This document shows, in pieces, positions 2,547-49,544 of a DNA stretch of 64,000 nucleotides; the first letter of the stretch is position 1, and the number at the start of each line of letters is the position of its first letter. A model generated the notes under the pieces. The model saw only the letters and a program-made list of their open reading frames with translations, did no database searches and was not told where the DNA came from. A program made the translations under genes and the position numbers. The stretch is from Chloranthus sessilifolius (Eukaryota; Streptophyta; Magnoliopsida; Chloranthales; Chloranthaceae). The DNA lies in contig CM037588.1 of NCBI GenBank assembly GCA_021018995.1, forward strand, positions 89,626,765 to 89,690,764, written 5' to 3'.

Positions 2547-2714
2547 TTGAACTTGAATGCTTGAAATTGAATGCTTGAACGTGATTGCTTGAACCTGAAT
2601 GCTTGAACTTGAATGCTTGAAATTGAATGCTTGAACGTGATTGCTTGAACCTGAATGCTTGAACTTGAATGCTTGAAATTGAATGCTTGAACGTGATTGC
2701 TTGAACCTGAATGC
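2547..2714. repeat. 56-bp local triplication within the array
   Basis: Three consecutive near-identical 56-bp blocks (four 14-bp units each) start at 2547, 2603 and 2659. Each runs TTGAACTTGAATGC, TTGAAATTGAATGC, TTGAACGTGATTGC, TTGAACCTGAATGC. The identity of the blocks marks a recent local amplification. Confidence 0.88.
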
Positions 2715-12616: not shown

Positions 12617-13100
12617 CGTGTATGCTTGAAAGTGAATGCTTGATAGATAGTGACACGCTTAAACGTGAATGCTTCATAGATAGTTACGAGCTTGAACGTG
12701 ATTGCTTTAACATGAATTATTGAATAGGAATTCTTGAACGTGAATGCTTGAACATGAATGCTGGAACATGAATGCTTGAATGTGAATGCTTGAACATGAA
12801 TGCTTGAACGTGAATGCTTGAACCTGAATGCTTGAACATGAATGCTTCAACATGAATGCTTCAACGTGTATGCTTGAAAGTGAATGCTTGATAGATAGTG
12901 ACACGCTTAAACGTGAATGCTTGATAGATAGTTACAAGCTTGAACGTGATTGCTTTAACATGAATTATTGAATAGGAATTCTTGAACGTGAATGCTTGAA
13001 CATGAATGCTGGAACATGAATGCTTGAATGTGAATGCTTGAACATGAATGCTTGAACGTGAATGCTTGAACCTGAATGCTTGAACATGAATGCTTGAACA
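12617..13100. repeat. 248-bp tandem duplication in the array
   Basis: The block from CGTGTATGCTTGAAAGTG (12617) repeats from 12865 with an exact 248-bp offset; for instance TGAATAGGAATTC occurs at 12721 and 12969. The two blocks differ at only a few positions, so this is a young duplication. Confidence 0.85.
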
Positions 13101-17877: not shown

Positions 17878-19299
17878 TATGGGGAGCACCCGTGCTATTT
17901 GTCAAGAGTAAGGATGGATCCATGCGGCTCTGTATTGATTATCAGCAATTGAATAAGCTGACGATAAAGAACTGTTATCTGCTCCCAAGGATTGATGACC
18001 TCTTCAATCAGTTGCAAGGGGCGAGATTCTTCTCCAAGATAGGCTTAAGGTCGGGACACCATCAACTGAAGGTGAAAGCTGAAGACATTCCAAAAACAGC
18101 CTTTCGAATGAGATATGGCCACTGTGAGCTCCTAGTTATACCATTTGGGCTGACAAATGCACCAACATCCTTTATGGACCTCATGAATAGAGTTTTCAAG
18201 CCTTATCTTGATCAGTTTGTAGTTATCTTCATGGATGATATCCTTATCTATTTGAAGACGAAAGAAGAACACGAACAACACTTGCATGTAGCTCTACAAA
18301 TGCTTCACGATCACTAATTACATGCCAAGCTGAGCATGTGTGAATTTTGGCTGGAGCAAGTGAGTTTTATGGGACATGTCATCTCAGAAGCCGATATAAA
18401 AGTGGACCCAACCAAGATTAAGGCTGTGGTGAAATGGGAGCAACACAGAACCGTAACTAAAATTCATAGCTTTCTGGGATTAGCTGATTACTACAGGAGA
18501 TTCATTGAAGGATTCTCTAAAATTGCAGGATTACTCACGCAACTCACTAGAAAGAATGCAAAATTTGAGTGGACCGAGTCATGTGAACAGAGCTTTCAGG
18601 AGCTCAAAAGAAGGTTGACCTCCGCACCAGTACTCACCATACCATCAGGCAGTGGTGGATTCGTAGTATTCAGCGACGTGTCACACAGTGGGCTAGGTTG
18701 GGTGCTGAATCAGAATGATAAAGTCATTGCATATGATTCGTGACAGTAGAAGGACCATGAAAAGAACTACCCCACACAAGACCTCGAATTGGCAGCAATC
18801 AACTTTGCCTTGAAGATCTAGAGGCACTATCTCTATGGTGAGACATTTGAAATATTCACCGATCACAAAAGCCTCAAGTATTGGTTCACCCAAAAGGACC
18901 TGAATCTGAGGCAAAAATGATGGATGAGATTCTTTAAAGATTATAATTGCTCGATTCAATAACATCCAGGAAAGGCAAATGTGGTAGCAGACATGCTAAG
19001 CCGAAAGTCAACTGCCCTGTTATCATACCTCATCACAAGAATTCGCAAATGGCATCTACTTGAGGATTTAACCTTGATTGACACAACATTTAATGTGAAG
19101 GAATCTGAAGCTTTAATTGCCAACCTTATTATTGGATCAACTCTCTTCGATAGAATCTACGAGCAACTATTAACTGATGAAGAATTGGTTACCATCAGAC
19201 AAGAAGTAGTGGATGGAAAGCTGCCTGACTTCTTCATCAAGGAAGACGGATCCTTAGTATTCTAAGGCCGACTTTGCATACTGGCTGATGTTGACCTGC
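17878..19299 (+). pseudogene. Tekay/Del-like reverse transcriptase-RNase H fragment
   Basis: This is the pol remnant of the element begun at 15891. It starts in the RT fingers ([13 protein letters not shown]) and continues through [20 protein letters not shown] and the polymerase box FMDD (18228-18239; YMDD/YVDD in most relatives). Next come the connection domain (FLGLADYYRRFI) and RNase H ([10 protein letters not shown], then HPGKANVVADMLSR). The last segment (EQLLTDEELVTIRQEV) is the linker before the integrase zinc finger, cut at 19299 by a family-B LTR. Stops at 18315, after AYDS, in ALKI*RHYLYGE, after LRQK and before HPGK break it. Most are C-to-T or G-to-A type. Confidence 0.92.
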
Positions 19300-21095
19300 T
19301 GTAGACACCCCAATTTTGCCCTCTCGGAGTATACAAACTTGTTCGATCAACCTTTGACCTTGCCCACGATCTTCGGAGAAGGACTGACCTTAAATACGGG
19401 GACCATATGCTGAAGCAATAGTTTATGCCCGAGTTTCAGGCTACAATAATAGTCCTATGACTCAAACTCAATCCAGTCTGAGGAAGATCCTGAATTTTGT
19501 GCCCTTACAGAGGCGCGTAATTTGATTACACGCATAGGTGTATGCGCACAATTGGTCCCAAGTTGGTCCAGACCCGCTCTTCCCACGATTTCCTTAAGAC
19601 CTGATTCCTCACGTTGGATAGGTCACGTAATCAAATTGCATGCCCCATCACTGGCATGCAATTGGTCCAACTTGGATCAGTCCTCCGCCTTTCGTAGATC
19701 GCCTGAAGACTCAATTACGTGCCTTCACCAGCACCCGCAATCGATTACACACACAATTATCAGCACGCAATTGGTCCCCAGTTGGACCTGGTCTCTAATT
19801 CCCGTGACCGTCCAAACTCCTCAATCAAGCGCACTTAAGCAGGCGCTTAATTGGATTGCACTTGCTATATAGGGCGCGCAATTAGTTCCAAGCGAGTGGG
19901 AACTAGGACACCCGACTGAGCCAGTCAGCCAGTCACTCACTGAGTCTGTGACCGATTCAAAGTGTATTACGTGCCTTCACCAGTGCTCGCAATTGGATCC
20001 AACCGGCCAATTGTGTACCTCCCACAGGGCACGTAATTACCTGAATACCTATAAATAGACCCCCTACTTCGACAATTTACACATCAATCAATTAACACAC
20101 ATTCAAGCCTCTAGTTCCTCTCCTCCAAGCTTAGGATTTCGAGACTCCCTTCGTGGTGCTTAGCTTCAAGTAATCTCTCTTAGTTTTTTAGTTTTAATTT
20201 CTAATTTATGGTTCTAGTTCTTAGTTCTAGTTTCTAATTCTTAGTTTCTAGTTCTAGATCTTAGGTTTTAATTCGTAGTTCTTAGTTTCTAATTCTAGTT
20301 TCTTGTTCTTAATTTCTAACTTCTAGTCCATAGTTCTTAATTTCTGATTCTAGTTCTTAGTCGCTAGAACCAATTCTTAGCTTTTAGTTATCAATTTTTA
20401 GTTTTTTAATCCTAAATTCTAGATCATCGTTATTATTTAGTTTCTAGTTATTAATTCCTAGTTCTAATTTGTTGTTAAATAGTTCATAATTCTCAACACT
20501 AATCCTAATCTTTAGATTTCTTAATCTTGATCTTTAAAATCTTAATTTTTCGACTCAAATTCAGCTTTCAGTCCATAATATTTTTAAAATAATCCTTAAC
20601 CACCCGATTTGCCCAAGGAAGCTTACGAAGGGTACTTGGGAACAGGGCCGATCCTAGCATAGCGGGCCACAACAATCAGAATTATAGAAGAATTAAAAAA
20701 CTTAATTAATTAGAATCAAAGTAGTATTAGGAAATTAAAATTAGTTAGAGTCAGAATAGTAATAGGATAGTAAATTAATTAGACTTAGAGTAGGATTAGG
20801 AAAATTAAACTAACTAAACTCCAAGGCAACCTAGAGTTGTTGAAGTCGGTCGGCCAACGTTCAACAAAGAAGTCAACCCACACCTCGAAAAGTGTGATCA
20901 ACGACATGTTGCAACATCGATAAATATTTGCAGCTGACGATCGCAATAAAACTAGGTATTCTTCGCTCAGAATTTACCTATTTATTTTCAGTATTTAATA
21001 TCTCTTATCCACCGCCTTTTCTAGAGTCCACTCGGACCGAATTGGGCCACTTCTTTCGGGGACCGAAAGGAACCCAGAAAAAGTGCGCACCAACA
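19300..21095 (+). mobile_element. Family-B LTR, copy 1
   Basis: Begins TGTAGACACCCC and ends CACCAACA, the same termini as the two longer family-B LTRs at 33094 and 40937 (TGTAGACACTCCC). At 1796 bp it is about 1 kb shorter, mainly because it lacks the amplified stem-loop array and some of the AT-rich downstream part. It carries GCGCAATTGGTCC-type dyads (a perfect one with 11-bp arms at 19634-19663) and a TTAGTTCTAGTTTCTAAT-like degenerate repeat at 20200-20480. It interrupts the Tekay-like pol. Confidence 0.88.
20050..20057 (+). promoter_or_regulatory. TATA box of family-B LTR copy 1
   Basis: TATAAATA in ACCTATAAATAGACC, aligned with ACCTATAAAAG at 34102 and 41947 in the other copies. Confidence 0.65.
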
Positions 21096-31501: not shown

Positions 31502-33087
31502 ATGGCCATGATGGAGAAAATGGTCAGGGCCTACACTAGTTGGAAAGCTTCTCAAAGCAGTCTCCCTTATCCACCCCTCACAAACCCATCTCATATAGTC
31601 CCAAATCTCCATGCCCCTTTTCTCCAAAACTCTCATCAACCCCCCATTATCCATACCACCCAAGACCCTCACCAACCATGGGGTCATTTGAGTGAGCCTC
31701 AGGCCCCCATGGGCCAGACCCATCAAGACCCAATGGGTCAGACCCATCAAGGCCCAATGGTCCAGACCCATCAAGGCCTAATGGGTCAGACACACCAAGG
31801 CCCAATGGGTCAGACCCACCAAGACCCAAAGAACCAGACCCATCAAGGCCCAATAGGCCAGACCCATCAAGGCCTAATGGGCCAGACCCATCAAGGCCCA
31901 ATGGGCCAAACCCATCAATGCCCCATGGTCCACACCCACCCAGGCCCTATGGCCTAAGCCCATCCAAGCTCCTTACCCTATACCCAATCCCAGCAAGGCC
32001 CAAACCTTAGAGCCTCATACCCACACCCTCCACAATTCCCTCAAAATCCCATTCACTCACAACCTTCATACCCGACCCAATACAGGAACCTATCTCACAC
32101 CGTTCATCAACCCCAACTCACCCGTCCTCCTACATCTCAATCTCATCCCCATGAATTCCCCAGGCACAATGGCCTCATCAAGCCCTAATCCAAAACCCAA
32201 CCTCTACTCACCCTATCATTCCACCGAATTTCCCCTATGTACAGTGGTCCCACCCAGCACCCCTTCAGACTACCCAACACCAACAGGAAAATCACACCCT
32301 TCCCTCATTTTATGAAGACCCATAGTATGAGGAAGTTGAGATAAGAAATAGTGGGGCTTATATGGGGGCACACACAAGTATCAATCCTCCGCCACCGGTA
32401 ATCACAAGCCCATCGACATTATAAAGTGAACGGAGGGCGACAATCAAAAGAACGACACCACCATCCAAAGAATCCGAGCAATTGAAGGAACAACTAGACA
32501 AGATCCAAAAACAACTAATGAAGATGGGTGGAAATGAAATCCATGCCACAGACTTTTCCGACATGTGCTTGTTTTCTGAAGTCCCCTTACCCCCGAAATT
32601 CAAAGTGCCGATCTTCGACAAATATAATGGCACGGGTAACCCCATTGCACATCTCAAGTCCTACTGTGGGGATATGTGCCAGTACAAAGGGGATGAGCAT
32701 TTGCTGATAAAGGTCTTCCAAAAGAGCCTTACGGGCCCGACCTTAAGGTGGTTCACTTCGCTGGAACCTTCCATGATAAAAACTTGGAAGGATCTAACCC
32801 ACTTATTCTAAGAGTAATATGTATACAACATAGACATTGAACCTAGCCTGGCTAAAGCAGTAGCCGACGAAGCATTTAGTGATTATCTTGGGCGGTGGAG
32901 GGCACTGACATCTTAGGTCGGGAATAGAATATCCGATGATGAGCAGATTGAAATGATTTAAAAAAATACCCTTCCGATCATCTAAGATTTTCTGGTATAT
33001 CAACAATAATCCAACTTTGCTGATTTGGTAAGGAATGCCAATCGCTGCGAAGATGCAATAAGAGAAGGGCAATTGAATAAAACCACA
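31502..33087 (+). pseudogene. Family-A gag with octapeptide repeat
   Basis: The Pro/Gln/His-rich N-terminal part (31502-31957) includes about ten copies of an eight-residue repeat, consensus GQTHQGPM. After a stop and frame change the capsid domain follows at 32482-32811. It has a short helical lead (KEQLDKIQKQLMKMG), then PPKFKVPIFDKYNGTGNP, HLKSYCGDM, LIKVFQKSLTGPTLRWF and WKDLTHLF. This is the Retrotrans_gag core as found in Tat/Ogre elements. It continues with stops through LAKAVADEAFSDYLGRWRAL and ANRCEDAIREGQL until a family-B LTR enters at 33094. The rest of the family-A element is not in the window. Confidence 0.85.
31705..31955 (+). repeat. 24-bp coding minisatellite in gag
   Basis: Tandem 24-bp units (CAGACCCATCAAGGCCCAAT and four more bases) encode QTHQGPMG-type octapeptides about ten times. 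Single-base variants give QTHQDPM, QTHQGLM and QTHPGPM. The reading frame is kept across the whole array. Confidence 0.88.
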
Positions 33088-33172
33088 AATAGTTGTAGAC
33101 ACTCCCATTTTGCCCTCTCAGAATATACAAATTTGTTTGGTCAACCTTTAACCTCATAACCCTGATATGGGA

Positions 33173-33644
33173 CCATATGCTGAAACTATAGTATATGGTT
33201 GGACACAGGCTGAAACAATAGTTCTGTGGCTCAGGCCCCATACCCCCGACGTGGGAACCATGCACTGAAACAATAGTACATGGCTGAACACAGGCTGAAA
33301 CAATAGCTCTGTGGCTGATATCCCGACGTAGGGAAATTATATACTGAAATAATAATATATAGTCGAAATGTAGACAGAAATAATAGTCTGACATTTCAGA
33401 CCCCTAACCCTAATGTGGGACCATATACTGAAACAATAGTATATGGCTGGACACAGGCTGAAACAATAGTTCTGTGGCTCAGGTCCCATACCCCCGACGT
33501 GGGAACCATGCACTGAAACAATAGTGCATGGTTGAACCCAAGCTGAAACAATAGCTCTGTGGCTCATATCCCAACGTAGGAAGACTATATACTGAAATAA
33601 TAGTATATAGTCAAAATGCAAGCTGACACAGTAGCCTGGCATTT
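33173..33644. repeat. Array of 12 dyads with constant loop GAAACAAT
   Basis: The array is two modules of six dyads, each built as stem-CT-GAAACAAT-AG-stem'. Perfect examples: arms CCATATACT/AGTATATGG at 33421-33446, CCATGCACT/AGTGCATGG at 33506-33531, and CTATATACT/AGTATATAG at 33585-33610. The module ends use AAATGT/ACATTT (first) and AAATGC/GCATTT (second, 33614-33644). Stems differ between members yet stay complementary. Confidence 0.9.
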
Positions 33645-34103
33645 CAAGCTCAACCCGAGCTCGGATAATCTCGAATTATGCGCCTAAAACCAAGCGCTCA
33701 ATTCGATTGCATGCCATATCACAAGCGTGCAATCAATCCCTTTTTAGACCAGACTTCCTTTCCCCAGACCAACTCGAGACTCGATCACGCGTCTATCATG
33801 AGACGCACGATCGGATTAAGCTCCCCATCATAGGAGCGCAATTGGCCTACTCCCGGCCTAGCCTCACCGTCCTCGATCCCTAAGTTTCCTTAATTAAACG
33901 CTTCGAGAGTGGTGCTTAATTGGATTACGCACCCCAAAATGTGCGCGCAATTAGTTCTAACACTATTAGGACTAGGAAACTCGTTGAGCAAGTCAGCCAA
34001 TCGCTCACTGAGTCGGTGACCGACTCAAAGCAATTAAGCATCAGGAGATCGGCGCGTAATTTTATTAAACACTTGAAACAGGGTGTTTAATTGAAGAAAA
34101 ACC

Positions 34104-34110
34104 TATAAAA
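34104..34110 (+). promoter_or_regulatory. TATA box of family-B LTR copy 2
   Basis: TATAAAA in ACCTATAAAAG, repeated at 41949 in the tandem copy and aligned with TATAAATA at 20050 in copy 1. Confidence 0.6.
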
Positions 34111-36031
34111 GTTTTTTTAAATTTCGACCAAAAAAAGAGGGGAGGAGAGCGAGAGAGAAAGGACTTTTTTGGATTCTGAAACCAGAGAACTCTGAGAATG
34201 AGTACATAGAGCAACCTAACCATAATTTCGAAATTCAAGCGCAGAATCTTCGAGGTTTCTCTCCGCAGCCCCGGTCCTAGGTAAAAATCTTAGTTTTAGA
34301 TTTAAGATCACTCTCTTAGTTTTAATTTTTAGTCCAAGACCGTAGAATAATTTTTTAGACCGCAAATTTTTTATATCTAATTCTAGTTCTCCAAATTTAG
34401 AACCAGTCCTTAATCTGACGGTCTAATTTATCGATCCTAAGCTTTAATTCCGTTCTAAAATCTCAATTTCCAGTCCTATCATTAATTTTTGGTTCTAGTC
34501 CTTGGATTCTAGAACCGGTCTTTAATCATACAGTCTGATTTTCTGCTTTCGGATCCGAATTCAGTCTTAAAAATTTAAATTTAAATTTAAATTTCTTAGT
34601 TTAATATTTCTAAATATCCTAAATATTAATTTTAGTTTCTATAATTCTACTTTTTCAATTTCATTCCTAATTATTACTCCAAAATTGACTCTGAAAAATC
34701 CAAAAATACTATTTTATAATCCTAAATCCAATTTATCTTTAATCTCAACCATTCGATTTGCCCAAGGGAGCTTACGGAGGGTACTCAGGAATGAGGCCAA
34801 TCCTCCTTAGCATAGCGGGCCCAAACCCCTTTTTTTATAGAATTACTTAGTTGCTTTAATTAGGATTATAATATCAGTTTCATAATTTCTTCTTAGAATT
34901 TTAGTACGGTCAATTTGCATGCCTTATTTTAATCAAATCCTTAGAATAATTGCTTCGATTAGAACCCCAATAAAATTTGTTCCTTTATTTTTAATTAGAT
35001 ATTTCTAGCATAGTTAATTCCTCGCCTTATTAGACCCTAATATCAATAATCAGTCCTTTTATTCCAATAAGAATCTTAGTATAATTAATTCATTGCTTTG
35101 ATTATAATTCTAGTCAAATCAGTCCTTTATTTTAATAAGAATTTAGTATGATTAATTCATTACTTTAATTAGATTTCAAGTACAGTTAATTCAGTGCTCT
35201 GATTGGAATTTTAATCAAATTAGTTTGTTTCCCTCAATTAGATTTTTCTATTTTATTCATATAAAATTAATTCATTGCTTAAATTAGAGTTTTAGTAAAA
35301 CTAGTTCTCTATTTCAATTAGAATTCTGGTACAACTAGTGTATGTGCTTTACTTAAAATTTCAGTATAACTAGCATGCTTGGTTTAATTAAAGATTTATT
35401 AAAATTAATACACCTGCATTCCTAGTACAATTTGGAGAACGATGTTAATTGGACTTTTAGTAGTATTAGGACACTATATTACTTAGAATACTAGTAGTGA
35501 TAGGAAACTAAAATTAATTAGACTCCGGATAGAATTAGAATACTAAATTAAATAAACCATAATAAATTCCCATATAACTAGACTCACAAGAGAATTGGAA
35601 AGTCTAAACTGATTAGAACTACAATAATAGCAGGGGAAGGGAAGAAAAATTAAACTATCTAAATTATAAGAAAAGACATAGCTATTGGCGTTTGCAGGCG
35701 GACGATTTAGTAAAGAAGTAACCTACACCCGCTCTAAAGCATGACCATTGACGTACTGCAGTGTCGTTAAATATCTGCAGCTGGCAATCGCAACAAATTA
35801 GGATCCTTCCTAGAAAACCCATTATTCCTAACATTCCAAATGCTGCATCGCTAGAGTGCACTTGGATAGAATTGGAGTCACTGATTCAACAGGGACCGAG
35901 CAGAACCTAGAAAAAGCGCACACCAACAGATTGTCGATCGCGATGGGACCCTTTTGCAAAGTCTTTTTCTAGAAAGTTAGTTTTCATCTTATCTCCCTAT
36001 TTTTTCTTTCTATCGTGTCAGTTAGATTCTC

Positions 36032-36032
<1 letters not shown>

Positions 36033-36067
<35 letters not shown>
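36033..36067. repeat. TA microsatellite before gag
   Basis: About 17 TA dinucleotides lie 22 bp upstream of the gag ATG. The same tract occurs at 43878-43910 in the tandem copy. Confidence 0.95.
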
Positions 36068-36070
<3 letters not shown>

Positions 36071-36089
36071 TCTTCGTTAAAGACTTGAG

Positions 36090-37770
36090 ATGTCTGGTAT
36101 ACGAAGAGTGAGTTTAGAAGACCCACCATTGTGGGGATATCATAACAATCTCACGTACGAAGAAGAACCATTTCACAATTTCAGCTCACGACAACCTGAG
36201 ATTAACATGGCCGGCGAGCAAGAAAATCCCTTCTCAACCCCACACATCAGTAATAATCATAATGGGAGAGATGGTAACACCAGACAAAACCTCACCGCTC
36301 AACAGATCGTAGAGCTTAGTATTCAAAGAATACAAAGAGGAGATGACAACTTCGAGGAATTGCTTCAAGGGTTGGCCGCCGCATACGAAACTATTTGGTC
36401 ACGACAATTTTCAAAAGAACAAGAGCGACAAGAGAGGCCACCTCCTACCCCGAGCACGGTATTAGCCCATGCTACACCATTGAGACAACCTGCCCACACA
36501 TTCTTCAATGATGACTCTTTAGACAAGGTTTTCTCACTGGTCGCTCCAAAAGATAGCACCATTAAAATTGAAGATCTCCCTAAAATGCTCGATGAGTATA
36601 TGGCCAAGAGAGAGCACCCCGATCATTTATTCGGATTTGAAAAATTTTGCTGGGACGTCGAGTTTAATTTACTAATAGGATTTAAGCCACTGAAATTTAC
36701 CAAAATATAATGGCACGGGAAATCCGAACCATCACTTGGCCCTCTTTTGTAATGATTTCCGACCCATATGTGATAATGAAGGAATTCTCATTCACTATTT
36801 CCAACGCTCATTAGAAGGAGAGGCTTTAGATTGGTTTGCGGGACTCCCGCTTTATAAGATAGAAACCTTCGGTGAATTAGTCGGTCAATTCTTAGACCGA
36901 TACAAACACTTGATCCATGAGACAGTCAGTCTCAGCGATCTAATGGCAGCCAAGCAAGGACCTAATGAAGAATTTACCGACTTTGTCGCCAGATGGAGAA
37001 AACTTGCTGCTAAGACTAGCACCTCAATGAAAGAGAAAGATTCGGTGGATATTATTATTAATAACACTAGAGAACCATTAAAGAGCGCACTTGTCATAAA
37101 TGATTGCCCCGACTTCACTGCACTCCACTCCCGGGCATCTCGACTAGCGCAACACATTAAAGGTGGAGACCATACTCTATCCATAGTCACATCGAAAGTG
37201 GGCTCTTCTAGTGAATCAAAATCAAAAAATAATAAGAAAGCCTTACGAATAAAACAGGTCAATATTGTTGTTAATCAAGGACAAAACTCCGAGAATAGAA
37301 ATTCTACCCATGAAACTTCGAGCAAAATCAAAATCTGCAACGATACACCAACCAAAACCAAGACACTAATCAGCAAAGATATGCAAACCAAAACCAAAGC
37401 TAGAACTAGAATCAGGGCCAGCATTAGAATAGAAATTAATATCCCAACACCTACCAGAATCAGAACACGACGCAGAATGGATCGGCCCCCGTGCCGAATT
37501 ACAATAGTGTGCCCCCACCGTAGAACTTTAACCCAGCTAGAGGCCCCTACTAGCCGAGGCAGGAACACTATCCCCCTTTACCGGATACGATTCCTAACAT
37601 TTTTGGTCTCCTTAACACTTAGAATCTCCTCTGATTCTCACAAGAAAGACCCCGCCCATGGCCGACAAATCTAGACTATAGTAAATACTATGCCTTCCAT
37701 CGATACACGAGACACAATCTAAAAGACTGTTGGGTCCTCAGGGACGTAATCTATGACATGAATGATCGAA
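36090..37770 (+). pseudogene. Family-B gag, tandem unit 1
   Basis: Capsid precursor. The ATG at 36090 (MSGIRRVSLEDPPLWG) opens 206 codons ending at 36710, where one extra A in a run of As shifts the frame. The capsid core continues at 36736-37260: LALFCND, IHYFQRSLEGEALDWFAGLP, GQFLDRYKHLIHETVSLSDL, EEFTDFVARWRKLAAKT, RASRLAQHI. Past 37260 the longest frame is Arg/Lys/Thr-rich (KTKARTRIRASIRI), while another frame shows YSKYYAFHRYTRHNLKDCW near 37680-37735. That is the zinc-knuckle-like motif of Tat gag with its first Cys changed to Tyr. The order is Tat-type. Confidence 0.87.
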
Positions 37771-38145
37771 GTCAGATCAATTTGGAAGCACTTAGGAATC
37801 CTAACCCTAATAATAACCAACCCTAACAAAATTTAGGGATCGTTAATAACCCCATGCCCAACTACAACCAAGCAATACCGGCTCAGGTCACCACCATTGA
37901 TCTCTTTGGTCGATCCCCCTTCCAACCTTCTACCTTAATCACTCTCATTCAACCCTTTGCTTCTTCTGCCACACCAATGAGAGCTCCTTCACCCCTGCAT
38001 CCCTCGGCCCTGATCACTCGCATCGCCTCGTCGAATCGACCTCCTTATCCAAAATTCACTCAAATATGAGTCCATTCCTTTAGGGCTAGGAGACCACTCC
38101 TCCATAGTCACCCACCAGAACCTCCAACCCCTCGAAATCTTGAGC

Positions 38146-39283
38146 CAATGCCATTACCTTTCCCTTTGTCAGATTCTAAACCCGAGTATGGAGATCACAT
38201 TCTCCAAACTACAGTCCAAATTGTTACATGGGTAGAAAGTGTCACACGAAAGTCTCCAAGCCAAGACAACGAAATAACCACTGAGCATTCGCTGAATCTA
38301 AAAGAAAGCGAGCCAGAAGAACATCCTGACCCATGCGAGACTGGTATCTGCTTTCCTAGAAGAGGAAGATTACACACAGTACCTCCCACCTTGGAGCAGC
38401 ACCATTCAGGTATGTGTTCCAACCTTGAATTTCACCCATTTTATAAATACAACCGTGCCAAGACGCGTCGGGTTCGGTCAACAACCGACTTGCCTAATTC
38501 TCAAATCAGGAACCAATTACCCACCTCCACCTTTCCCTCAAAAAAAGGATTTCATGAACGCACAACCACCGGAGGGGAATGTGAGAGAAAGAAAAGTTAA
38601 CTTGCCTCCCCCACCTCACATCATCCCTCCGCCAATGCCTGCACCTCAACCATTCCAACCACCCGCACCTAAGGCCCATCGGCAAGAATACGACCTTTTG
38701 CGACATCTCTAGATAATCCTGACCCAGATATCCATACTAGAACTCATGGATGAGGATATGACCCTAGATGAGCTTCATCAAATCACTTCGGTCATGGCAC
38801 AACCTCTGGCGCTCACTTTTACAGATGCAGACATGCCTAAAGAGTCACTCCATGGGAGTGCGGCCCCCATATATCTTACGATCATAATTATAGGATTCTC
38901 CGTGCCACACGCACTAGTTGACACGAGAGCAGGACTTAACATTTGCCCTCTCACCACATTAAAAATGCTCGAATATATGGAGCAGGATGTTAGGCCCTCT
39001 GCACTGTCACTCATAGCTTATGATGGGTCGCGTCACTTTATCAAAGGAACTATCAAGCTGTGTTCGCCTACCTATAACGAAAGACGTTACCTTCCATATT
39101 TTGATTCCGCTAAATGCGTACAATCTCATTTTAGGAAGAAAATGGCTAGAGTCAATGAAGGCCGTCGCATCCACATACCATCAATACGTCAAATTCCCAT
39201 ACGAGGACTTGTTAGGCTATTTTAGAGTGCTTGCTACTAACTTTATTGATGACAGTGATAAGAATGGGGTGAATGAAAATGAA
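38146..39283 (+). pseudogene. Family-B linker and aspartic protease, tandem unit 1
   Basis: A Pro-rich linker (38146-38700) leads to a retropepsin-like domain. The active-site segment is HALVDTRAGLNICP (catalytic Asp codon at 38920-38922); the usual DTG/DSG Gly is Arg, which should inactivate it. Further on, LILGRKWLESMKA is the conserved ILGR-W block. A 54-bp deletion at about 38747 and a garbled stretch at 39056-39115, relative to unit 2, put the C-terminal half in another frame (39020-39286). The domain is followed directly by an inverted family-C LTR. Confidence 0.8.
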
Positions 39284-40929
39284 TGAAAGGTAGATTGAAG
39301 ATGACAGAGCAGCAAGCCTAAAATATGCACAATCCTGCAAGCTATAGGGCCTGTTGTAGCAAGTTTTGATAAGTAAGAGTTTGTCCCATAGGGAAATTGA
39401 TCTTAAGCTCCAAGGGAGCCATCTTTAGTAGGCCCTCCAGATCTGACTACAGATCTGGCAATCCTAAATGGAAGGGGATTTGGGGTCACTAAAGTCTAAA
39501 TTCTAAGGTATCCTAATGTCTAGACTATAGAAAGGTTTAAGAAAGAAGATGGAGTGAGAAAATAAATATAAAAGGGTGAGAAGTATGCTATTAGGTTCAG
39601 ATCTGATGGGTTTCATGACTCAAATTCAGATTTGCTGCTATAGAAGTCCTGTCCAGTGGCTACATTATCACCATTGAGGAGAAAGAATCCAACTCATCTC
39701 TGTGCCATGATCCAATCCCTTTATGGTTATAACCTGTCAACTTAAATGGTCACAGATTATCCAATTGGGGAACCACAGTCCAGAGATGGATCAAAACGAG
39801 TTTATCATTGTAGGCACTACTTCATGCAGGATACAAGCATAAGAATCCATAGGGAACCTCAACCTCTAAAGTGCTATGTGTGGGGCTAGGCCTGTATGGG
39901 AGCATGTTAGCCCAGACACATAGAACCAGCAAGAAGTTGAGTGCAGCCTTAGATCCAGCTGTCCACTGCTTTAGAGAGTTTGTAGTGATCTAGTCGCAAG
40001 CCTACAATCTCTATAACCAAACCAGATTACCCATCTGATGGCGGGTCTATACACATACAGGGGAGTTTATCTCAGCACAATCTCTCACAGGGCTAGAAGC
40101 ACAAGTGCAGAGAAGAATAATCTATCTTGAGTCTGTGGGTTGGCTTCACCCTAAGGCTATAACCTGTCCACTTAAATGGTCACAAACTATCCCAGAGGCT
40201 ATCCTCCTCACAAAGCTCAAGATAGAACAAGAGACATTGCTGCCACCACCATGTTCACAAGGCTACAAAAGCTCATTGCTCCCTTGGGGACTTCAGATCT
40301 AGTGGGTCCTGTGGTGGGGCTAGGCCTGTATGGGAGCATATTAGCCCAGACACACAGGTCACTTGGATCTGAATAAACCATGAAATCAGTCCTCCATTGC
40401 TTGCAATATGTCTTAGCAATGGAGGATCTCAAGATTGACCTTATGTCAACAACTCACAAAAATCCCATAAAAGTAAAGCACCCTATCATGAAACTCCATT
40501 AATCTATTCCAAATAGTCATACAAAGGCATAGCCAGCAACTGCTGGACTATGGAGAGAAGAAAATGTAAAAAGAAAAGTTCCTAAAACTTACTAGAAATA
40601 TGCAGCTACTACAAGAAGAAGAAGAAGATAGACTAAATTCTATTCTCAGCAGAGAGTCCTCTAAACCTAAACTAGGCTTAGGTTTATATAGCAGTTAGTT
40701 TGGCGGCGCATTAGGGTTAGGAAACCCTAATTTTAACGATGTCACATGGCCTAATATTATCCCTTGGATGCCTCGAGGCGTGTGCATGGAACTTGGAGCG
40801 TTGGAATGCGTGCCCTAATTATTGAAAGTTCCCAGAATATCCTCTGCAGAGGTGAGGGAGAGTTAGAGTTCAGAGGCTCGCTAGGTAGTACTGGTTTCCA
40901 AGACTGTCGCATGGTAGCACGAACTTCGC
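39284..40929 (-). mobile_element. Family-C LTR, inverted, truncated by the duplication junction
   Basis: Same sequence as 47166-48811 in the second unit and the reverse complement of about 50850-52437. It stops at GAACTTCGC (40929), where sequence jumps to the left flank of the family-B LTR. It has a minus-strand TATATAA box at 40684-40690. Short ORFs here lie in LTR sequence and are not genes. Confidence 0.85.
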
Positions 40930-40936
40930 AAATAGT
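40930..40936. other. Tandem-duplication junction
   Basis: AAATAGT before the second LTR copies the bases just left of the first LTR (33087-33093). To its left, CTTCGC continues in the other copy as CTTCGCGAGG (48807 onwards). The junction therefore joins the interior of the inverted family-C LTR to the DNA just outside the family-B LTR, with about one base of overlap. Confidence 0.82.
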
Positions 40937-43771
40937 TGTAGACACTCCCATTTTGCCCTCTCAGAATATACAAATTTGTTTGGTCAACCTTTAACCTCAT
41001 AACCCTGATATGGGACCATATGCTGAAACTATAGTATATGGTTGGACACAGGCTGAAACAATAGTTCTGTGGGTTTCAGCCCCATATACCTCGACGTGGG
41101 AACCATGCACCCAAAAACAATAGTATATGGTCAACACAAATAAAACAATAGCTCGGGTATCGATATCCCGACGAGGGAAATTATATATCATGAAATAATA
41201 ATATATAGTCGAAATGTAGATGTAAATAATAGTCCGACATTTCGCACCCTAACCCTAATGTGGGACCATATACTGAAACAATAGTATATGGCTGGACACA
41301 GGCTGAAACAATAGTTCTGTGGCTCAGGTCCCATACCCCCGACGTGGGAACCATGCACTGAAACAATAGTGCATGGTTGAACCCAAGCTGAAACAATAGC
41401 TCTGTGGCTCATATCCCAACGTAGGAAGACTATATACTGAAATAATAGTATATAGTCAAAATGCAAGCTGACACAGTAGCCTGGCATTTCAAGCTCAACC
41501 CGAGCTCGGACAATCTCGAATTATGCGCCTAAAACCAAGCGCTCAATTCGATTGCATGCCATATCACAAGCGTGCAATCAATCCCTTTTTAGACCAGACT
41601 TCCTTTCCCCAGACCAACTCGAGACTCGATCACGCATCTATCATGAGACGCACGATCGGATTAAGCTCCCCATCATAGGAGCGCAATTGGCCTACTCCCG
41701 GCCTAGCCTCACCGTCCTCGATCCCTAAGTTTCCTTAATTAAACGCTTCGAGAGTGGTGCTTAATTGGATTACGCACCCCAAAATGTGCGCGCAATTAGT
41801 TCTAACACTATTAGGACTAGGAAACTCGTTGAGCAAGTCAGCCAATCGCTCACTGAGTCGGTGACCGACTCAAAGCAATTAAGCATCAGGAGATCGGCGC
41901 GTAATTTTATTAAACACTTGAAACAGGGTGTTTAATTGAAGAAAAACCTATAAAAGTTTTTTTAAATTTCGACCAAAAAAAGAGGGGAGGAGAGCGAGAG
42001 AGAACGGACTTTTTTGGATTCTGAAACCAGAGAACTCTGAGAATGAGTACATAGAGCAACCTAACCATAATTTCGAAATTCAAGCGCAGAATCTTCGAGG
42101 TTTCTCTCCGCAGCCCCGGTCCTAGGTAAAAATCTTGGTTTTAGATTTAAGATCACTCTCTTAGTTTTAATTTTTAGTCCAAGACCGTAGAATCCTTTTT
42201 TAGACCGCAAATTTTTTATATCTGATTCTAGTTCTCCGAATTTAGAACCAGTCCTTAATCTGACGGTCTAATTTATCGATCCTAAGCTTTAATTCCGTTC
42301 TAAAATCTCAATTTCCAGTCCTATCATTAATTTTTGGTTCTAGTCCTTGGATTCTAGAACCGGTCTTTAATCATACAGTCTGATTTTCTGCTTTCGGATC
42401 CGAATTCAGTCTTAAAAATTTAAATTTAAATTTAAATTTCTTAGTTTAATATTTCTAAATATCCTAAATATTAATTTTAGTTTCTATAATTCTACTTTTT
42501 CAATTTCATTCCTAATTATTACTCCAAAATTGACTCTGAAAAATCCAAAAATACTATTTTATAATCCTAAATCCAATTTATCTTTAATCTCAACCATTCG
42601 ATTTGCCCAAGGGAGCTTACGGAGGGTACTCAGGAATGAGGCCAATCCTCCTTAGCATAGCGGGCCCAAACCCCTTTTTTTATAGAATTACTTAGTTGCT
42701 TTAATTAGGATTATAATATCAGTTTCATAATTTCTTCTTAGAATTTTAGTATGGTCAATTTGCATGCCTTATTTTAATCAAATCCTTAGAATAATTGCTT
42801 CGATTAGAACCCCAATAAAATTTGTTCCTTTATTTTTAATTAGATATTTCTAGCATAGTTAATTCCTCGCCTTATTAGACCCTAATATCAGTAATCAGTC
42901 CTTTTATTCCAATAAGAATCTTAGTATAATTAATTCATTGCTTTGATTATAATTCTAGTCAAATCAGTCCTTTATTTTAATAAGAATTTAGTATGATTAA
43001 TTCATTACTTTAATTAGATTTCAAGTACAGTTAATTCAGTGCTCTGATTGGAATTTTAATCAAATTAGTTTGTTTCCCTCAATTAGATTTTTCTATTTTA
43101 TTCATATAAAATTAATTCATTGCTTAAATTAGAGTTTTAGTAAAACTAGTTCTCTATTTCAATTAGAATTCTGGTACAACTAGTGTATGTGCTTTACTTA
43201 GAATTTCAGTATAACTAGCATGCTTGGTTTAATTAAAGATTTATTAAAATTAATACACCTGCATTCCTAGTACAATTTGGAGAACGATGTTAATTGGACT
43301 TTTAGTAGTATTAGGACACTATATTACTTAGAATACTAGTAGTGATAGGAAACTAAAATTAATTAGACTCCGGATAGAATTAGAATACTAAATTAAATAA
43401 ACCATAATAAATTCCCATATAACTAGACTCACAAGAGAATTGGAAAGTCTAAACTGATTAGAACTACAATAATAGCAGGGGAAGGGAAGAAAAATTAAAC
43501 TATCTAAATTATAAGAAAAGACATAGCTATTGGCGTTTGCAGGCGGACGATTTAGTAAAGAAGTAACCTACACCCGCTCTAAAGCATGACCATTGACGTA
43601 CTGCAGTGTCGTTAAATATCTGCAGCTGGCAATCGCAACAAATTAGGATCCTTCCTAGAAAACCCATTATTCCTAACATTCCAAATGCTGCATCGCTAGT
43701 GCACTTGGATAGAATTGGAGTCACTGATTCAACAGGGACCGAGCAGAACCTAGAAAAAGCGCACACCAACA
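40937..43771 (+). mobile_element. Family-B LTR, copy 3 (in tandem unit 2)
   Basis: 2835 bp, same ends as copy 2. It is nearly identical except for a patch at 41066-41240 with many small substitutions and indels, and a 2-bp deletion near 43697. It is part of a segmental tandem duplication rather than the element's own 3' LTR, because gag and protease follow it again. Confidence 0.9.
41949..41955 (+). promoter_or_regulatory. TATA box of family-B LTR copy 3
   Basis: TATAAAA, duplicate of the box at 34104. Confidence 0.6.
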
Positions 43772-43874
43772 GATTGTCGATCGCGATGGGACCCTTTTGC
43801 AAAGTCTTTTTCTAGATAGTTAGTTTTCATCTTATCTCCCTATTTTTTCTTTCTATCGTGTCAGTCAGATTCTC

Positions 43875-43913
<39 letters not shown>

Positions 43914-43932
43914 TCTTCGTTAAAGACTTGAG

Positions 43933-45590
43933 ATGTCTGGTATACGAAGAGTGAGTTTAGAAGACCCACCATTGTGGGGATATCATAACAATCTCACGTA
44001 CGACGAAGAACCATTTCACAATTTCAGCTCACGACAACCTGAGATTAACATGGCCGGCGAGCAAGAAAATCCCTTCTCAACCCCACACATCAGTAATAAT
44101 CATAATGGGAGAGATGGTAACACCAGACAAAACCTCACCGCTCAACAGATCGTAGAGCTTAGTATTCAAAGAATACAAAGAGGAGATGACAACTTCGAGG
44201 AATTGCTTCAAGGGTTGGCCGCCGCATACGAAACTATTTGGTCACGACAATTTTCAAAAGAACAAGAGCGACAGAGAGGCCACCTCCTACCCGGAGTGTA
44301 TTAGCCCATGCTACACCATTGAGACAACACCACATTCTTCAATGATGACTCTTTAGACAAGGTTTTCTCAACCGTCGCTCCAAAAGATAGCACCATTAAA
44401 ATTGAAGATCTCCTAAAATGCTCGTATATGGCCAAGAGAGAGCACCGATCATTTATTTGGATTTGAAAAATTTTCTTTGACGCCGAGTTTAATTTACTAA
44501 TAGGATTTAAGCCCGAAATTTACCAAATATAATGGCCGGAAATCCGAACCATCACTTGGCCCTCTTTTGTAATGATTGCCGACCCATATGTGATAATGAA
44601 GGAATTCTCATTCACTATTTCCAACGCTCATTAGAAGGAGAGGCTTTAGATTGGTTTGCGGGACTCCCGCTTTATAAGATAGAAACCTTCGGTGAATTAG
44701 TCGGTCAATTCTTAGACCGATACCAACACTTGATCCATGAGACAGTCAGTCTCAGCGATCTAATGGCAGCCAAGCAAGGACCTAATGAAGAATTTACCGA
44801 CTTTGTCGCCAGATGGAGAAAACTTGCTGCTAAGACTAGCACCTCAATGAAAGAGAAAGATTCGGTGGATATTATTATCGATAACACTAGAGAACCATTA
44901 AAGAGCGCACTTGTCATAAATGATTGCCCCGACTTCACTGCACTCCACTCCCGGGCATCTCGACTAGCGCAACACATTAAAGGTGGAGACCATACTCTAT
45001 CCATAGTCACATCGAAAGTGGGCTCTTCTAGTGAATCAAAATCAAAAAATAATAAGAAAGCCTTAGGAATAAAATAGGTCAATATTGTTGTTAATCAAGG
45101 ACAAAACTCTGAGAATAGAAATTCTACCCACGAAACTTCGAGCAAAATCAAAATCTGCAACGATACACCAACCAAAACCAAGACACTAATCAGCAAAGAT
45201 ATGCAAACCAAAACCAAAGCTAGAACTAGAATCAGGGCCAGTATTAGAATAGAAATTAATATCCCAACACCTACTAGAATCAAAACACGACGCAGAATGG
45301 ATCGGCCCACGTGCCGAATTACAATAGTGTGCCCCCACCGTAGAACTTTAACCCAGCCAGAGGCCCCTACTAGCCGAGGCAGGAACACTATCCCCCTTTA
45401 CCGGATACGATTCCTAACATTTTTGGTCTCCTTAACACTTAGAATCTCCTCTGATTCTCACAAGAAAGACCCCGCCCATGGCCGACAAATCTAGACTATA
45501 GTAAATACTATGCCTTCCATCGATACGCGAGACACAATCTAAAAGACTGTTGGGTCCTCAGGGACGTAATCTATGACATGAATGATCGAA
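43933..45590 (+). pseudogene. Family-B gag, tandem unit 2
   Basis: Copy of the gag at 36090. The first 123 codons (43933-44304) match, then a cluster of small deletions at 44270-44530 destroys the frame. The core is open again at 44532-45077 (NPNHHLALFCNDCRPICD to SKNNKKALGIK), ending in a TAG where unit 1 has CAG. At the place of the extra A in unit 1, unit 2 has the in-frame sequence, so each copy carries independent damage. The Arg/Lys-rich tail (45201-45494) is as in unit 1. Confidence 0.85.
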
Positions 45591-45965
45591 GTCAGATCAA
45601 TTTGGAAGCACTTAGGAATCCTAACCCTAATAATAACCAACCCTAACAAAATTTAGGGATCGTTAATAACCCCATGCCCAACTACAACCAAGCAATACCG
45701 GCTCAGGTCACCACCATAGATCTCTTTGGTCGATCCCCCTTCCAACCTTCTACCTTAATCACTCTCATTCAACCCTTTGCTTCTTCTGCCACACCAATGA
45801 GAGCTCCTTCACCCCTGCATCCCTCGGCCCTGATCACTCGCATCGCCTCGTCGAATCGACCTCCTTATCCAAAATTCACTCAGATATGAGTCCATTCCTT
45901 TAGGGCTAGGAGACCACTCCTCCATAGTCACGCACCAGAACCTCCAACCCCTCGAAATCTTGAGC

Positions 45966-47168
45966 CAATGCCATTACTTTTCCCTTTGTCAGATTCTAAA
46001 CCCGAGTATGGAGATCACATTCTCCAAACTACAGTCCAAATTGCTGCATGGGTAGAAAGTGTCACACGAAAGTCTCCAAGCCAAGACAACGAAATAACCA
46101 CTGAGCATTCGCTGAATCTAAAAGAAAGCGAGCCAGAAGAACATCCTGACCCATGCGAGACTGGTATCTGCTTTCCTAGAAGAGGAAGATTACACACAGT
46201 ACCTCCCACCTTGGAGCAGCACCATTCAGGTATGTGTTCCAACCTTGAATTTCACCCATTTTATAAATACAACCGTGCCAAGACGCGTCGGGTTCGGTCA
46301 ACAACCGACTTGCCTGATTCTCAAATCAGGAACCAATTACCCACCTCCACCTTTCCCTCAAAAAAAGGATTTCATGAACGCACAACCACCGGAGGGGAAT
46401 GTGAGAGAATGAAAAGTTAACTTGCCTCCCCCACCTCACATCATCCCTCCGCCAATGCCTGCACCTCAACCATTCCAACCACCCGCACCTAAGGCCCATC
46501 GGCAAGAATACGACCTTTTGCGACATCTCTAGATAATCCCGACCCAGATATCCATACTAGAACTCATCAAGAAATCGCCTGACCATCACTGATTGTTGAT
46601 AAGGACACTTGAAGACACACAAGTGGATGAGGATATGACCCTAGATGAGCTTCATCAAATCACTTCGGTCATGGCACAACCTATGGCGCTCACTTTTACA
46701 GATGCAGACATGCCTAAAGAGTCACTCCATGGGAGTGCGGCCCCCATATATCTTACGATCATAATTATAGGATTCTCCGTGCCACACGCACTAGTTGACA
46801 CGAGAGCAGGACTTAACATTTGCCCTCTCACCACATTAAAAATGCTCGAATATATGGAGCAGGATGTTAGGCCCTCTGCACTATCACTCATAGCTTATGA
46901 TGGGTCGCGTCACTTTATCAAAGGAACTATCAAGCTACAGGTTCGCCTCAGACCTATAACGAAAGACGTTACCTTCCATATTTTTGATTCCGCTAGTACG
47001 TACAATCTCATTTTAGGAAGAAAATGGCTAGAGTCAATGAAGGCCGTCGCATCCACATACCATCAATACATCAAATTCCCATACGAGGACTTGTTAGGCT
47101 ATTTTAGAGTGCTTGCTACTAACTTTATTGAAGACAGTGATAAGAATGGGGTGAATGAAAATGAATGA
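45966..47168 (+). pseudogene. Family-B linker and aspartic protease, tandem unit 2
   Basis: The better preserved copy of the protease. The continuous 191-codon frame at 46593-47168 includes MTLDELHQITSVMA, the active-site segment HALVDTRAGLNICP (Asp codon 46799-46801, again Arg for Gly), DVTFHIFDSASTYNLILGRKWLES and YIKFPYEDLLGYFRV. The 54 bp missing from unit 1 are present. The end (NENE) lies at the boundary with the inverted family-C LTR, so the last residues may be LTR-encoded. Because the Gly-to-Arg change is in both units, it predates the duplication. Confidence 0.85.
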
Positions 47169-49544
47169 AAGGTAGATTGAAGATGACAGAGCAGCAAGCC
47201 TAAAATATGCACAATCCTGCAAGCTATAGGGCCTGTTGTAGCAAGTTTTGATAAGTAAGAGTTTGTCCCATAGGGAAATTGATCTTAAGCTCCAAGGGAG
47301 CCATCTTTAGTAGGCCCTCCAGATCTGACTACAGATCTGGCAATCCTAAATGGAAGGGGATTTGGGGTCACTAAAGTCTAAATTCTAAGGTATCCTAATG
47401 TCTAGACTATAGAAAGGTTTAAGAAAGAAGATGGAGTGAGAAAATAAATATAAAAGGGTGAGAAGTATGCTATTAGGTTCAGATCTGATGGGTTTCATGA
47501 CTCAAATTCAGATTTGCTGCTATAGAAGTCCTGTCCAGTGGCTACATTATCACCATTGAGGAGAAAGAATCCAACTCATCTCTGTGCCATGATCCAATCC
47601 CTTTATGGTTATAACCTGTCAACTTAAATGGTCACAGATTATCCAATTGGGGAACCACAGTCCAGAGATGGATCAAAACGAGTTTATCATTGTAGGCACT
47701 ACTTCATGCAGGATACAAGCATAAGAATCCATAGGGAACCTCAACCTCTAAAGTGCTATGTGTGGGGCTAGGCCTGTATGGGAGCATGTTAGCCTGCATG
47801 ACATAGAACCAAAGAAGAAGTTGAGTGCAAAGCCTTAGATCCAAATGTCCCACCTTTAGAGAGTTTGTAGTGATCTAGTCGCAAGCCTACAATCTCTATA
47901 ACCAAACCAGATTACCCATCTGATGGCGGGTCTATACACATACAGGGGAGTTTATCTCAGCACAATCTCTCACAGGGCTAGAAGCACAAGTGCAGAGAAG
48001 AATAATCTATCTTGAGTCTGTGGGTTGGCTTCACCCTAAGGCTATAACCTGTCCACTTAAATGGTCACAAACTATCCCAGAGGCTATCCTCCTCACAAAG
48101 CTCAAGATAGAACAAGAGACATTGCTGCCACCACCATGTTCACAAGGCTACAAAAGCTCATTGCTCCCTTGGGGACTTCAGATCTAGTGGGTCCTGTGGT
48201 GGGGCTAGGCCTGTATGGGAGCATATTAGCCCAGACACACAGGTCACTTGGATCTGAATAAACCATGAAATCAGTCCTCCATTGCTTGCAATATGTCTTA
48301 GCAATGGAGGATCTCAAGACAACAGCCTTGTACAGAACAACTCACAAAAATCCCATAAAAGTAAAGCACCCTATCATGAAACTCCATTAATCTATTCCAA
48401 ATAGTCATACAAAGGCATAGCCAGCAACTGCTGGACTATGGAGAGAAGAAAAAGTAAAAAGAAAAATACCTAAAACTTACTAGAAATATGCAGCTACTAC
48501 AAGAAGAAGAAGAAGATAGACTAAATTCTATTCTCAGCAGAGAGTCCTCTAAACCTAAACCAGGCTTAGGTTTATATAGCAGTTAGTTTGGCGGCGCATT
48601 AGGGTTAGGAAACCCTAATTTTAACGATGTCACATGGCCTAATATTATCCCTTGGATGCCTCGAGGCGTGTGCATGGAACTTGGAGCATTGGAATGCGTG
48701 CCCTAATTACTGAAAGTTCCCAAAATATCCTCTGCAGAGGTGAGGGAGAGTTAGAGTTCAGAGGCTCGCCAGGTAGTACTGGTTTCCAAGACTGTCGCAT
48801 GGTAGCACGAACTTCGCGAGGTTGGATTAGCTTGAAATTCTAGCCGTCGCAGGGTTGTCTTAGTTACAGCTGAAGCAGTCACGCGATAGAGCATTGAATC
48901 CTCGCTGGATTGCTCTAATCTTCACAGGATTGGTCTTTCCTTCTGAATGGCACGAGAATCGCGCGAGCAATTTGTTTCTTGAAGGATCTTCGCGAGGATG
49001 TGATGTGCATTGGTCTCTGAATTGCGCGAGAAGTTTTTCTAAAGTTTTACATCTCGCAGCCACTGCGCGACAGCTGCGCGCTGAAATACCTGGAGCTCTC
49101 TCTCCTCAATTGATCTGAGTGAACTGCGTGAGGTTTGAGAGCTGCTTTCTTGGGCTGCACGAGACTGCATGAGTAGTTATATTTGAGCTTTGCGAGAGAT
49201 GCGTAAAGTATGATTCTGAAGCCCCTCTGTCTCTCAACTGTGTGAGAACATTGCAGGCTATTGGAAAGGAAGTTTTGGGAGGCTCGCGAGGACCGCGCGA
49301 GACTTAATTTCTGAATCCTTTAAAGCTTATAAAAGCTGCGTGAGGTTCAATTCTTGTCTGGGTTCAGCTTTCATCCTTTTGAGGGACTTCTGGGGCAAAA
49401 GTGGGCTCCTTAACAGGGTTCAGGCCTTATTGCAGCTGTTGTTTATTATCTACAGAAATGACTTAACACACATTTATTAGATGACTAAGGGTCTAACAGA
49501 GGCTAAGTTAAGGGGTGAAAAGTGGGGCTTTTCATGTCTTAACA
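47166..49544 (-). mobile_element. Family-C LTR, inverted (Athila-like)
   Basis: The reverse complement of the LTR at 49947-52437. The 5' terminus, TGTTAAGACATGAAAAG on the minus strand, is exact at 49544. The other end is approximate (47150-47166). It has a minus TATATAA at 48572-48578. U3 (48812-49345) is packed with CGCGAG-type motifs, and R/U5 holds two copies of a GGGGCTAGGCCTGTATGGGA block. It splits family-B protease from the G-patch segment. There is no PBS in this orientation, so it is a solo LTR or a decayed end. No 5-bp target duplication could be recognised. Confidence 0.85.

Follow-up and report, generated by a model that had tools for sequence, protein, structure and literature searches.

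The dyad array and its host element

The window, i.e. the entire 64,000-nucleotide stretch of Chloranthus sessilifolius DNA analysed here (on contig C5 of a 2.17 Gb genome in 32 contigs), contains an array of short dyads close to the start of a long terminal repeat, LTR1 (Table 1). The array begins approximately 80 nt inside LTR1 and spans about 80 to 550 nt from the LTR start. As the putative TATA box lies 3' of it, the array sits in U3, with the LTR start upstream and the TATA box downstream, which bears out the placement proposed in an earlier reading of the letters without database searches (sequence-only reading). The exact LTR-start pattern was found in 1,930 copies genome-wide (reversed control: 0). 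Just 3' of LTR1, at 35686, lies a decayed PBS-like TGGCG motif, which we take to be of the tRNA-Asp type. In addition to the gag-like ORF of the element, a second one (Retrotrans_gag) is present at 44511–45077, 3' of LTR2. No pol domain was detected in four ORFs of at least 170 aa tested within 36081–39225, nor in the seven tested ORFs of the array-bearing element, and the only RVT_1 match among 10 + 10 ORFs tested was a fragment outside this element, at 17820–18317 (E 3e-24), about 1 kb upstream of another LTR that starts near 19300. The array-bearing element probably belongs to the Ty3/gypsy group of LTR retrotransposons.

The segments 33086–40929 and 40929–48817 are tandem copies (97%) in which the LTR and the internal region are duplicated, and no third LTR was seen at the end of the 33086–48817 duplication. 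The array of LTR2 is identical to that of LTR1 in module 2, and its module 1 (41070–41240) shows clustered substitutions and small indels relative to LTR1, attributable either to local conversion or to hairpin DNA having been misassembled or wrongly polished. Elsewhere in the window, a 14-bp satellite (CTTGAACGTGAATG) occupies 806–15085 (14.3 kb, approximately 995 copies, 70% matches) and includes shorter stretches with periods of 61, 75 and 117.

Table 1. Features of the window and their positions.
Feature	Position	Strand	Remarks
Single A-B dyad pair, LTR of related family (starts ~19300)	19403..19460	+	Single pair usual in this family
LTR1 with array	33094..35684	+	Starts TGTAGACACTCCCATTTTGCCC; 3' end approximate; start shared with LTR2 at 40937
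U3 of LTR1	33094 to ~34135	+	R start guessed from TATA box
Module 1	33157..33404	+	Three ~83-nt units, each a short CCC..GGG dyad + A + B or C
Dyad A1, module 1	33173..33198	+	Core 33180-33191, CTGAAACTATAG
Dyad B1, module 1	33204..33228	+	Core 33210-33221; one-base bulge on 3' arm
Dyad A2, module 1	33258..33283	+	Core 33265-33276; common C.A mismatch
Dyad B2, module 1	33289..33313	+	Core 33295-33306
Dyad A3, module 1	33335..33364	+	Core 33344-33355, CTGAAATAATAA
Dyad C, module 1	33366..33396	+	Core 33375-33386, CAGAAATAATAG
Module 2	33405..33652	+	89% identical to module 1 over 242 nt
Dyad A1, module 2	33421..33446	+	Core 33428-33439
Dyad B1, module 2	33452..33476	+	Core 33458-33469
Dyad A2, module 2	33504..33533	+	Core 33513-33524; perfect 9-bp arms AACCATGCA/TGCATGGTT
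Dyad B2, module 2	33537..33561	+	Core 33543-33554
Dyad A3, module 2	33583..33612	+	Core 33592-33603
Dyad C, module 2	33614..33644	+	Core 33623-33634
Putative TATA box CTATAAAAG	34104..34110	+	~460 nt 3' of array; assigned by sequence only
gag-like ORF of element	36694..37674	+	Retrotrans_gag, E 5e-8
Second array copy, in LTR2 (starts 40937)	41016..41489	+	Module 1 garbled; module 2 as in LTR1

The array at 33173–33644 was confirmed to consist, as first described, of twelve dyads in two six-dyad modules with unlike stems around CTGAAACAATAG. This core is exact in seven of the twelve dyads and deviates at one or two of its 12 positions in the other five; at core position 7, C and T are about equally frequent in several slots, i.e. 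dyad positions within the module. The order of dyads in each 248-nt module is A1-B-A2-B-A3-C, and the two modules are 89% identical over 242 nt at an offset of 248. TRF reported a unit of approximately 85 nt in 4.8 copies, indicating that each module is itself composed of three units of about 83 nt; the CCC..GGG dyads of these units were identified by inspection. The A stems comprise 7–9 pairs without a bulge, and in the B and C stems one base is bulged on the 3' arm, this base being variable in C (G 57, C 38, T 23, A 9) and T in 226 of 233 cases in B. All arms quoted in the sequence-only reading were present, the fully paired combination CCATGCACT/AGTGCATGG only in module 2 (33504–33533); its counterpart in module 1 is CCATGCACT/AGTACATGG, with a C.A mismatch. 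Among the genome copies of the A2 slot this mismatch was found in 92 of 117, and the perfect-arm form is uncommon, G occupying that 3' position in seven of the 117, including the two from the window.

Abundance and relatives in the genome

The exact core occurs 22,182 times genome-wide compared with 314 occurrences of the reversed control, a pattern beyond chance. The 76 sources analysed (the window and 75 loci) contained 73 arrays of at least two dyads, among which exactly twelve dyads was the commonest size (38 arrays) and 18 the maximum (three arrays); the module is present one to three times in this abundant family. Spacing in the 38 twelve-dyad arrays is nearly fixed (30/55/30/49/31/53–54 in most). 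An LTR start lies at most 330 nt upstream in 66 of the 73 arrays, and in 51 of those at a distance of 80–99 nt. Of the 46 matches of one search, 38 stretches entered the analysis, the other eight matches being the window itself (two) and further pieces of loci already listed (six); L001–L008, as overlapping copies of L009, were left out. Among the first 100 core places listed, 30 of 36 clusters held at least two dyads, with L028 (which holds no core, its cluster lying in L045) set aside. The other six clusters (L019, L023, L024, L026, L035 and L037) are lone cores without a second dyad and were set aside as background or other repeats. One of them (L024:4090–4210) lies amid other palindromes, around GATACGTA and GTATCGG.

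A diverged relative of the array is present in the window itself, in the LTR starting near 19300, for which the sequence-only reading had given about two decayed dyads: there are two only, at 19410 (one mismatch) and 19441 (three mismatches). A single A-B pair is usual in this related family, two pairs being found in L017 and L116, and the abundant family reaches 18 dyads, in line with the earlier proposal that the array expanded within the family. A search with this LTR yielded 40 places, 32 of them at 72–80% identity. Hairpins A and B of the related LTRs have a common core, CTGAAAYAATAG. Moreover, a further 12-bp dyad, CTTCGGAGAAGG-ACTGA-CCTTCTCCGAAG, was present upstream of A, approximately 65–105 nt from the LTR start, in 32 of 39 LTRs (L084–L121), a tally that admits up to 8 mismatches in 29 positions and so refers to LTRs chosen by that likeness. 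Its 3' arm is lost in the LTR near 19300, and the dyad was not seen on inspection of the array LTR of the window (33121–33180). The U3 start of this LTR group is generally dyad-rich. Near the LTR start, GRTCAACCTTTGACC (window 19340–19359, also in other LTRs) contains a well conserved inverted TTGAC pair, presumably W-box-like.

Mean pairwise identity was calculated for 33 of the 39 LTRs, leaving out L111, L114, L115, L116, L117 and L121 because of near-duplication, a changed core, a double pair or an insertion. The cores of A and B showed identities of 0.89 and 0.86, respectively, compared with 0.78/0.81 for the arms of A, 0.67/0.72 for the arms of B and 0.62–0.66 for the adjoining flanks, indicating that the core is constrained and the arms less so. 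The cores are not uniquely conserved, as identity is also high in nt 1–50 of the LTR (0.88) and in nt 50–90 (0.79).

Folding and pairing in copies, lineages and a sister family

Folding of 33160–33660 was compared with that of shuffled sequences, and the prospect raised in the sequence-only reading, that the array might fold no better than these, was dispelled: z-scores were −8.2 for the plus-strand RNA, −7.2 for the minus-strand RNA and −9.3 for the plus-strand DNA, and in each of the three folds none of 100 shuffles was as good. When LTR1 was scanned in 200-nt segments, the first (33095–33294) was without excess (z −0.9, −0.4), the strongest signals came from three segments spanning 33245–33744 (z −3.9 to −7.6), and the remaining U3 to 34194 was also structured (z −2.6 to −3.5); beyond 34194, only 34445–34644 stood out on both strands (z −3.9, −3.4). 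No Rfam match was obtained in 33000–34200 at E up to 1.

To follow pairing among genomic copies, 719 of 744 dyads from the 76 sources were assigned to slots (A1 113, A2 117, A3 129, B1 114, B2 119, C 127), the 25 dyads without a clear slot being left out. At nearly every pair of the six slots the paired fraction was close to its shuffled value. The clear exception was pair 1 of C (78% paired, 54% shuffled), largely owing to a G-C/A-T difference between the modules; at pair 3 of A1 the values were 0.97 and 0.96, due to one swapped slot. Where a cell departed from the majority of its slot, the change was confined to one side in 852 cells and affected both sides in 81; 62 of the latter were complementary, 29 of them representing a single module-1/module-2 polymorphism in slot C. 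When module and slot were kept apart (38 twelve-dyad arrays), 50 two-sided cells were observed, weakly exceeding the 30 expected (odds ratio 2.1), and slot swaps such as A1/A2 exchanges may account for part of this excess. After insertion, copies thus decay for the most part as dead LTRs generally do, with loss of pairing mostly uncompensated. The sequence-only reading had inferred covarying stems and, from these, selection or a mechanism acting on a hairpin or cruciform, to be judged by compensatory changes exceeding single-sided ones across many copies. The arms indeed differ between members of the array and yet are complementary, but covariation did not extend to the genomic copies, where one-sided changes dominate, and selection on hairpins, as far as the copies show it, is refuted by that measure. 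Covariation apparent within a single repeat array can be missing among its copies, which calls for caution in claims of RNA structure in transposons.

The diverged LTRs were examined in an alignment of 46 (all 40 places plus six further segments). The fraction of paired cells was 83.8%, versus 83.6% after permuting the 3' letters between sequences (as high in 139 of 500 shuffles), indicating that the dyads are conserved mainly as sequence; it fell to 23–44% when one arm was slid. There were 17 two-sided cells compared with 11.6 after shuffling (20 of 500 shuffles), and RNAalifold predicted seven pairs only, all in A. On a flank-based tree, Watson-Crick pairs gave way to G.U in 46 cases, to A.C in 43 and to a different Watson-Crick pair in 15, the similarity of the first two numbers indicating no overall strand preference and no sign of a sense-RNA helix. 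The corresponding counts on internal branches only were 11, 5 and 3, and one-sided returns to Watson-Crick pairs on all branches numbered 19 from G.U and 6 from A.C.

Lineages were compared through the commonest letters of homologous slots in the 38 twelve-dyad arrays. In a chain of six comparisons, eight pairs had changed on both sides, seven on the left only and four on the right only, and 38 were unchanged (Fisher p = 0.0011; p = 2e-5 for all ten comparisons, both values being rough). All eight two-sided changes stay Watson-Crick, being A-T/G-C or C-G/T-A exchanges and hence transitions throughout, and occupy six pair columns, two of them entering the count twice because the comparisons share slots. 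Since two transitions always restore a pair, the evidence resides in the excess of two-sided changes and not in their complementarity. Pairing was kept between lineages, a positive if rough result from small numbers.

A sister family (L114, L115) has the LTR start in common with the LTRs above and lacks the core. Searching with L115 gave 40 scored places (908 first-look candidates), and the alignment likewise comprised 40 copies, L114, L115 and 38 fetched ones, with place C2:37151389 left out; one step of the analysis took 20 of the 40. The A dyad of this family (e.g. L124: GACTATATACTAT-ATGC-ATAGTATATAGTC) has a 13-bp stem and a 4-nt loop with 72–97% Watson-Crick pairing per pair, and the B dyad (GGGTTGA-AATA-TCAACCC) has seven pairs at 72–95%, the outer GAG/CTC being mostly kept. 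GGGTTGAAATATCAACCC occurs exactly 32 times in the genome (control: 0). One pair of A shows a one-sided C.A mismatch in 10 of 40 copies. Judged by the commonest letters, the B dyad differs at 10 of 17 positions in its 3' half versus 6 of 16 in its 5' half, a weak difference. Both loops and the B stem have thus been replaced in the sister family and the layout of hairpin A followed by hairpin B has been kept. The survival of this layout argues more strongly than any other result that the dyad form itself is of consequence or that some mechanism renews it.

Interpretation and comparison with known systems

We consider the chances about even that the array is a cis-element of U3 whose dyad (hairpin) form is kept in active lineages and which was amplified in tandem. 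Related LTRs open U3 with a series of dyads, often the upstream ACTGA-loop dyad, then A, then B, and in one very successful family the A-B stretch together with a short CCC..GGG dyad occurs as three diverged units (A1-B, A2-B and A3-C; 248 nt). With the core as its loop or centre, the dyad form would be maintained for as long as a lineage is active, and repetition would raise the dose of dyads, in the manner of other U3 repeat arrays. The most probable use would be a binding platform for a host or element protein, and this candidate platform may either govern transcription from the downstream TATA box or act on the genomic RNA, at the U3 copy in its 3' end. This is the best explanation, at the level of either DNA or RNA; the packaging, dimerisation and small-RNA roles suggested in the sequence-only reading are conjectural. 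The rivals overlap and are not mutually exclusive.

An array of enhancer-type sites in double-stranded DNA is possible, if somewhat doubtful. Here a host transcription factor would bind the 12-bp core, the arms would be a by-product or bind further dimers, and amplification would make a stronger promoter, which agrees with the conservation of the core above arms and adjoining flanks, with the position upstream of the TATA box, with tandem amplification and with the similarly placed motifs of Sirevirus that excerpts of PMC2829016 read as regulatory. Such an array leaves the complementarity of the unlike stems A, B and C unexplained, and the sister family keeps dyads yet loses the core. That loss also weighs against a more doubtful alternative, an array of hairpins in the genomic RNA, within the U3 copy at its 3' end, serving stability, packaging, Gag binding or escape from silencing, with the loop AAAYAA/GAAAYAAU as the recognition site. 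A constant loop on differing but complementary stems speaks for this alternative, as do the two-sided changes between lineages, the prevalence of G.U over A.C on internal branches (11 vs 5) and among the sources of returns to Watson-Crick pairs (19 vs 6). However, G.U and A.C are about equal in total (46 and 43), the antisense strand folds about equally well, and 33000–34200 matches no Rfam family at E up to 1.

Two further readings dispense with a function of the pairing, and we regard both as unlikely. The palindromes might perpetuate themselves through template switching at quasi-palindromes during reverse transcription, one arm being rewritten as the complement of the other, which would let dyads persist and stems change in single steps. 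A process of this kind has been described for the DNA replication of RNA genes (excerpts of PMC8794818); confined to replicating lineages, it would fit both the pairing between lineages and its loss in inserted copies, and the more strongly changed 3' half of the sister B dyad (10/17 vs 6/16) points weakly in the same direction. Yet the bulges of B and C and the C.A mismatch of A2 persist across copies uncorrected, and conservation of the core above its adjoining flanks needs selection. Plain duplication of one conserved palindromic stretch, with complementarity by descent, units a few transitions apart and pairing now functionless, is improbable to a like degree: the excess of two-sided over one-sided changes (rough p = 0.001) and the replacement of the sister B stem by another perfect dyad run counter to it, against eight two-sided changes only, in six pair columns and all transitions, and little or no covariation in the copies, which it would readily accommodate.

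Going beyond the U3 cis-element with a maintained dyad form, one may speculate, with little confidence, that the array exemplifies a kind of hairpin module in the U3 of plant LTRs. The loop would be the selected recognition element, and the stems would be free to change and remain complementary in active lineages, partly through template switching; tandem amplification would tune the dose (2 to 18 hairpins per LTR), and in the sister family both loops and one stem would have been exchanged within an unchanged two-hairpin layout.

Tnt1, which probably belongs to a superfamily other than that of the array-bearing element, has U3 boxes (BI/BII) that are repeated or symmetric and linked to transcription. 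These resemble the array as repeated or symmetric U3 elements, a likeness by description only, and the symmetry of box I is mentioned in excerpts of PMC2829016. In the openly licensed PMC literature no account of a hairpin or palindrome array like this one was found, the nearest being the motifs of Sirevirus (Ty1/copia), whose LTRs carry palindromic repeated motifs (RM boxes) upstream of the TATA box that are proposed to be regulatory; according to excerpts of the same source, they number 8 to 18 copies, have a CGG-CCG core in most cases and are tabulated as one motif per element (PMC2829016). The array shares with these boxes the palindromic, high-copy motif, the dyad symmetry and the position in the LTR upstream of the TATA box, but, as far as the excerpted account goes, differs from them in its constant asymmetric 12-mer core and in arms that vary within one array. 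The CGG-CCG signature is absent from the dyads of the window, whose core is CTGAAAYAATAG, and as regards a gag-pol of the Sirevirus kind, the tested ORFs gave a Retrotrans_gag match and no RT. As a published motif the 12-mer core was rejected, its only string match in the openly licensed PMC literature being in human Y-chromosome typing work.

Family-specific short tandem repeats are also known from Tat/Retand elements (plant Ty3/gypsy), where they lie between pol and the 3' LTR (excerpts of PMC11963269), and an 82-bp repeat in Gypsy/TAT elements of Coffea is cited there by title. Like the array, the Tat/Retand repeats are short tandem repeats in a non-coding part, and the 82-bp length is close to the ~83-nt unit, likened by description only; unlike the Tat/Retand arrays as excerpted, the array described here lies inside the LTR and is built of dyads. 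With RNA hairpins maintained by template switching it has in common that stems change and complementarity is kept, possibly in one step, whereas those hairpins, as excerpted, concern RNA genes and DNA replication, and here bulges and mismatches persist (PMC8794818). U3 is generally much less conserved and has few recognisable motifs besides the TATA box, according to excerpts of PMC3601003; in this poorly conserved region, a single genome supplies more than twenty thousand exact cores belonging to one type of dyad, in a known register and in several diverged families, so that sequence selection, pairing selection and palindrome correction become separable by counting.
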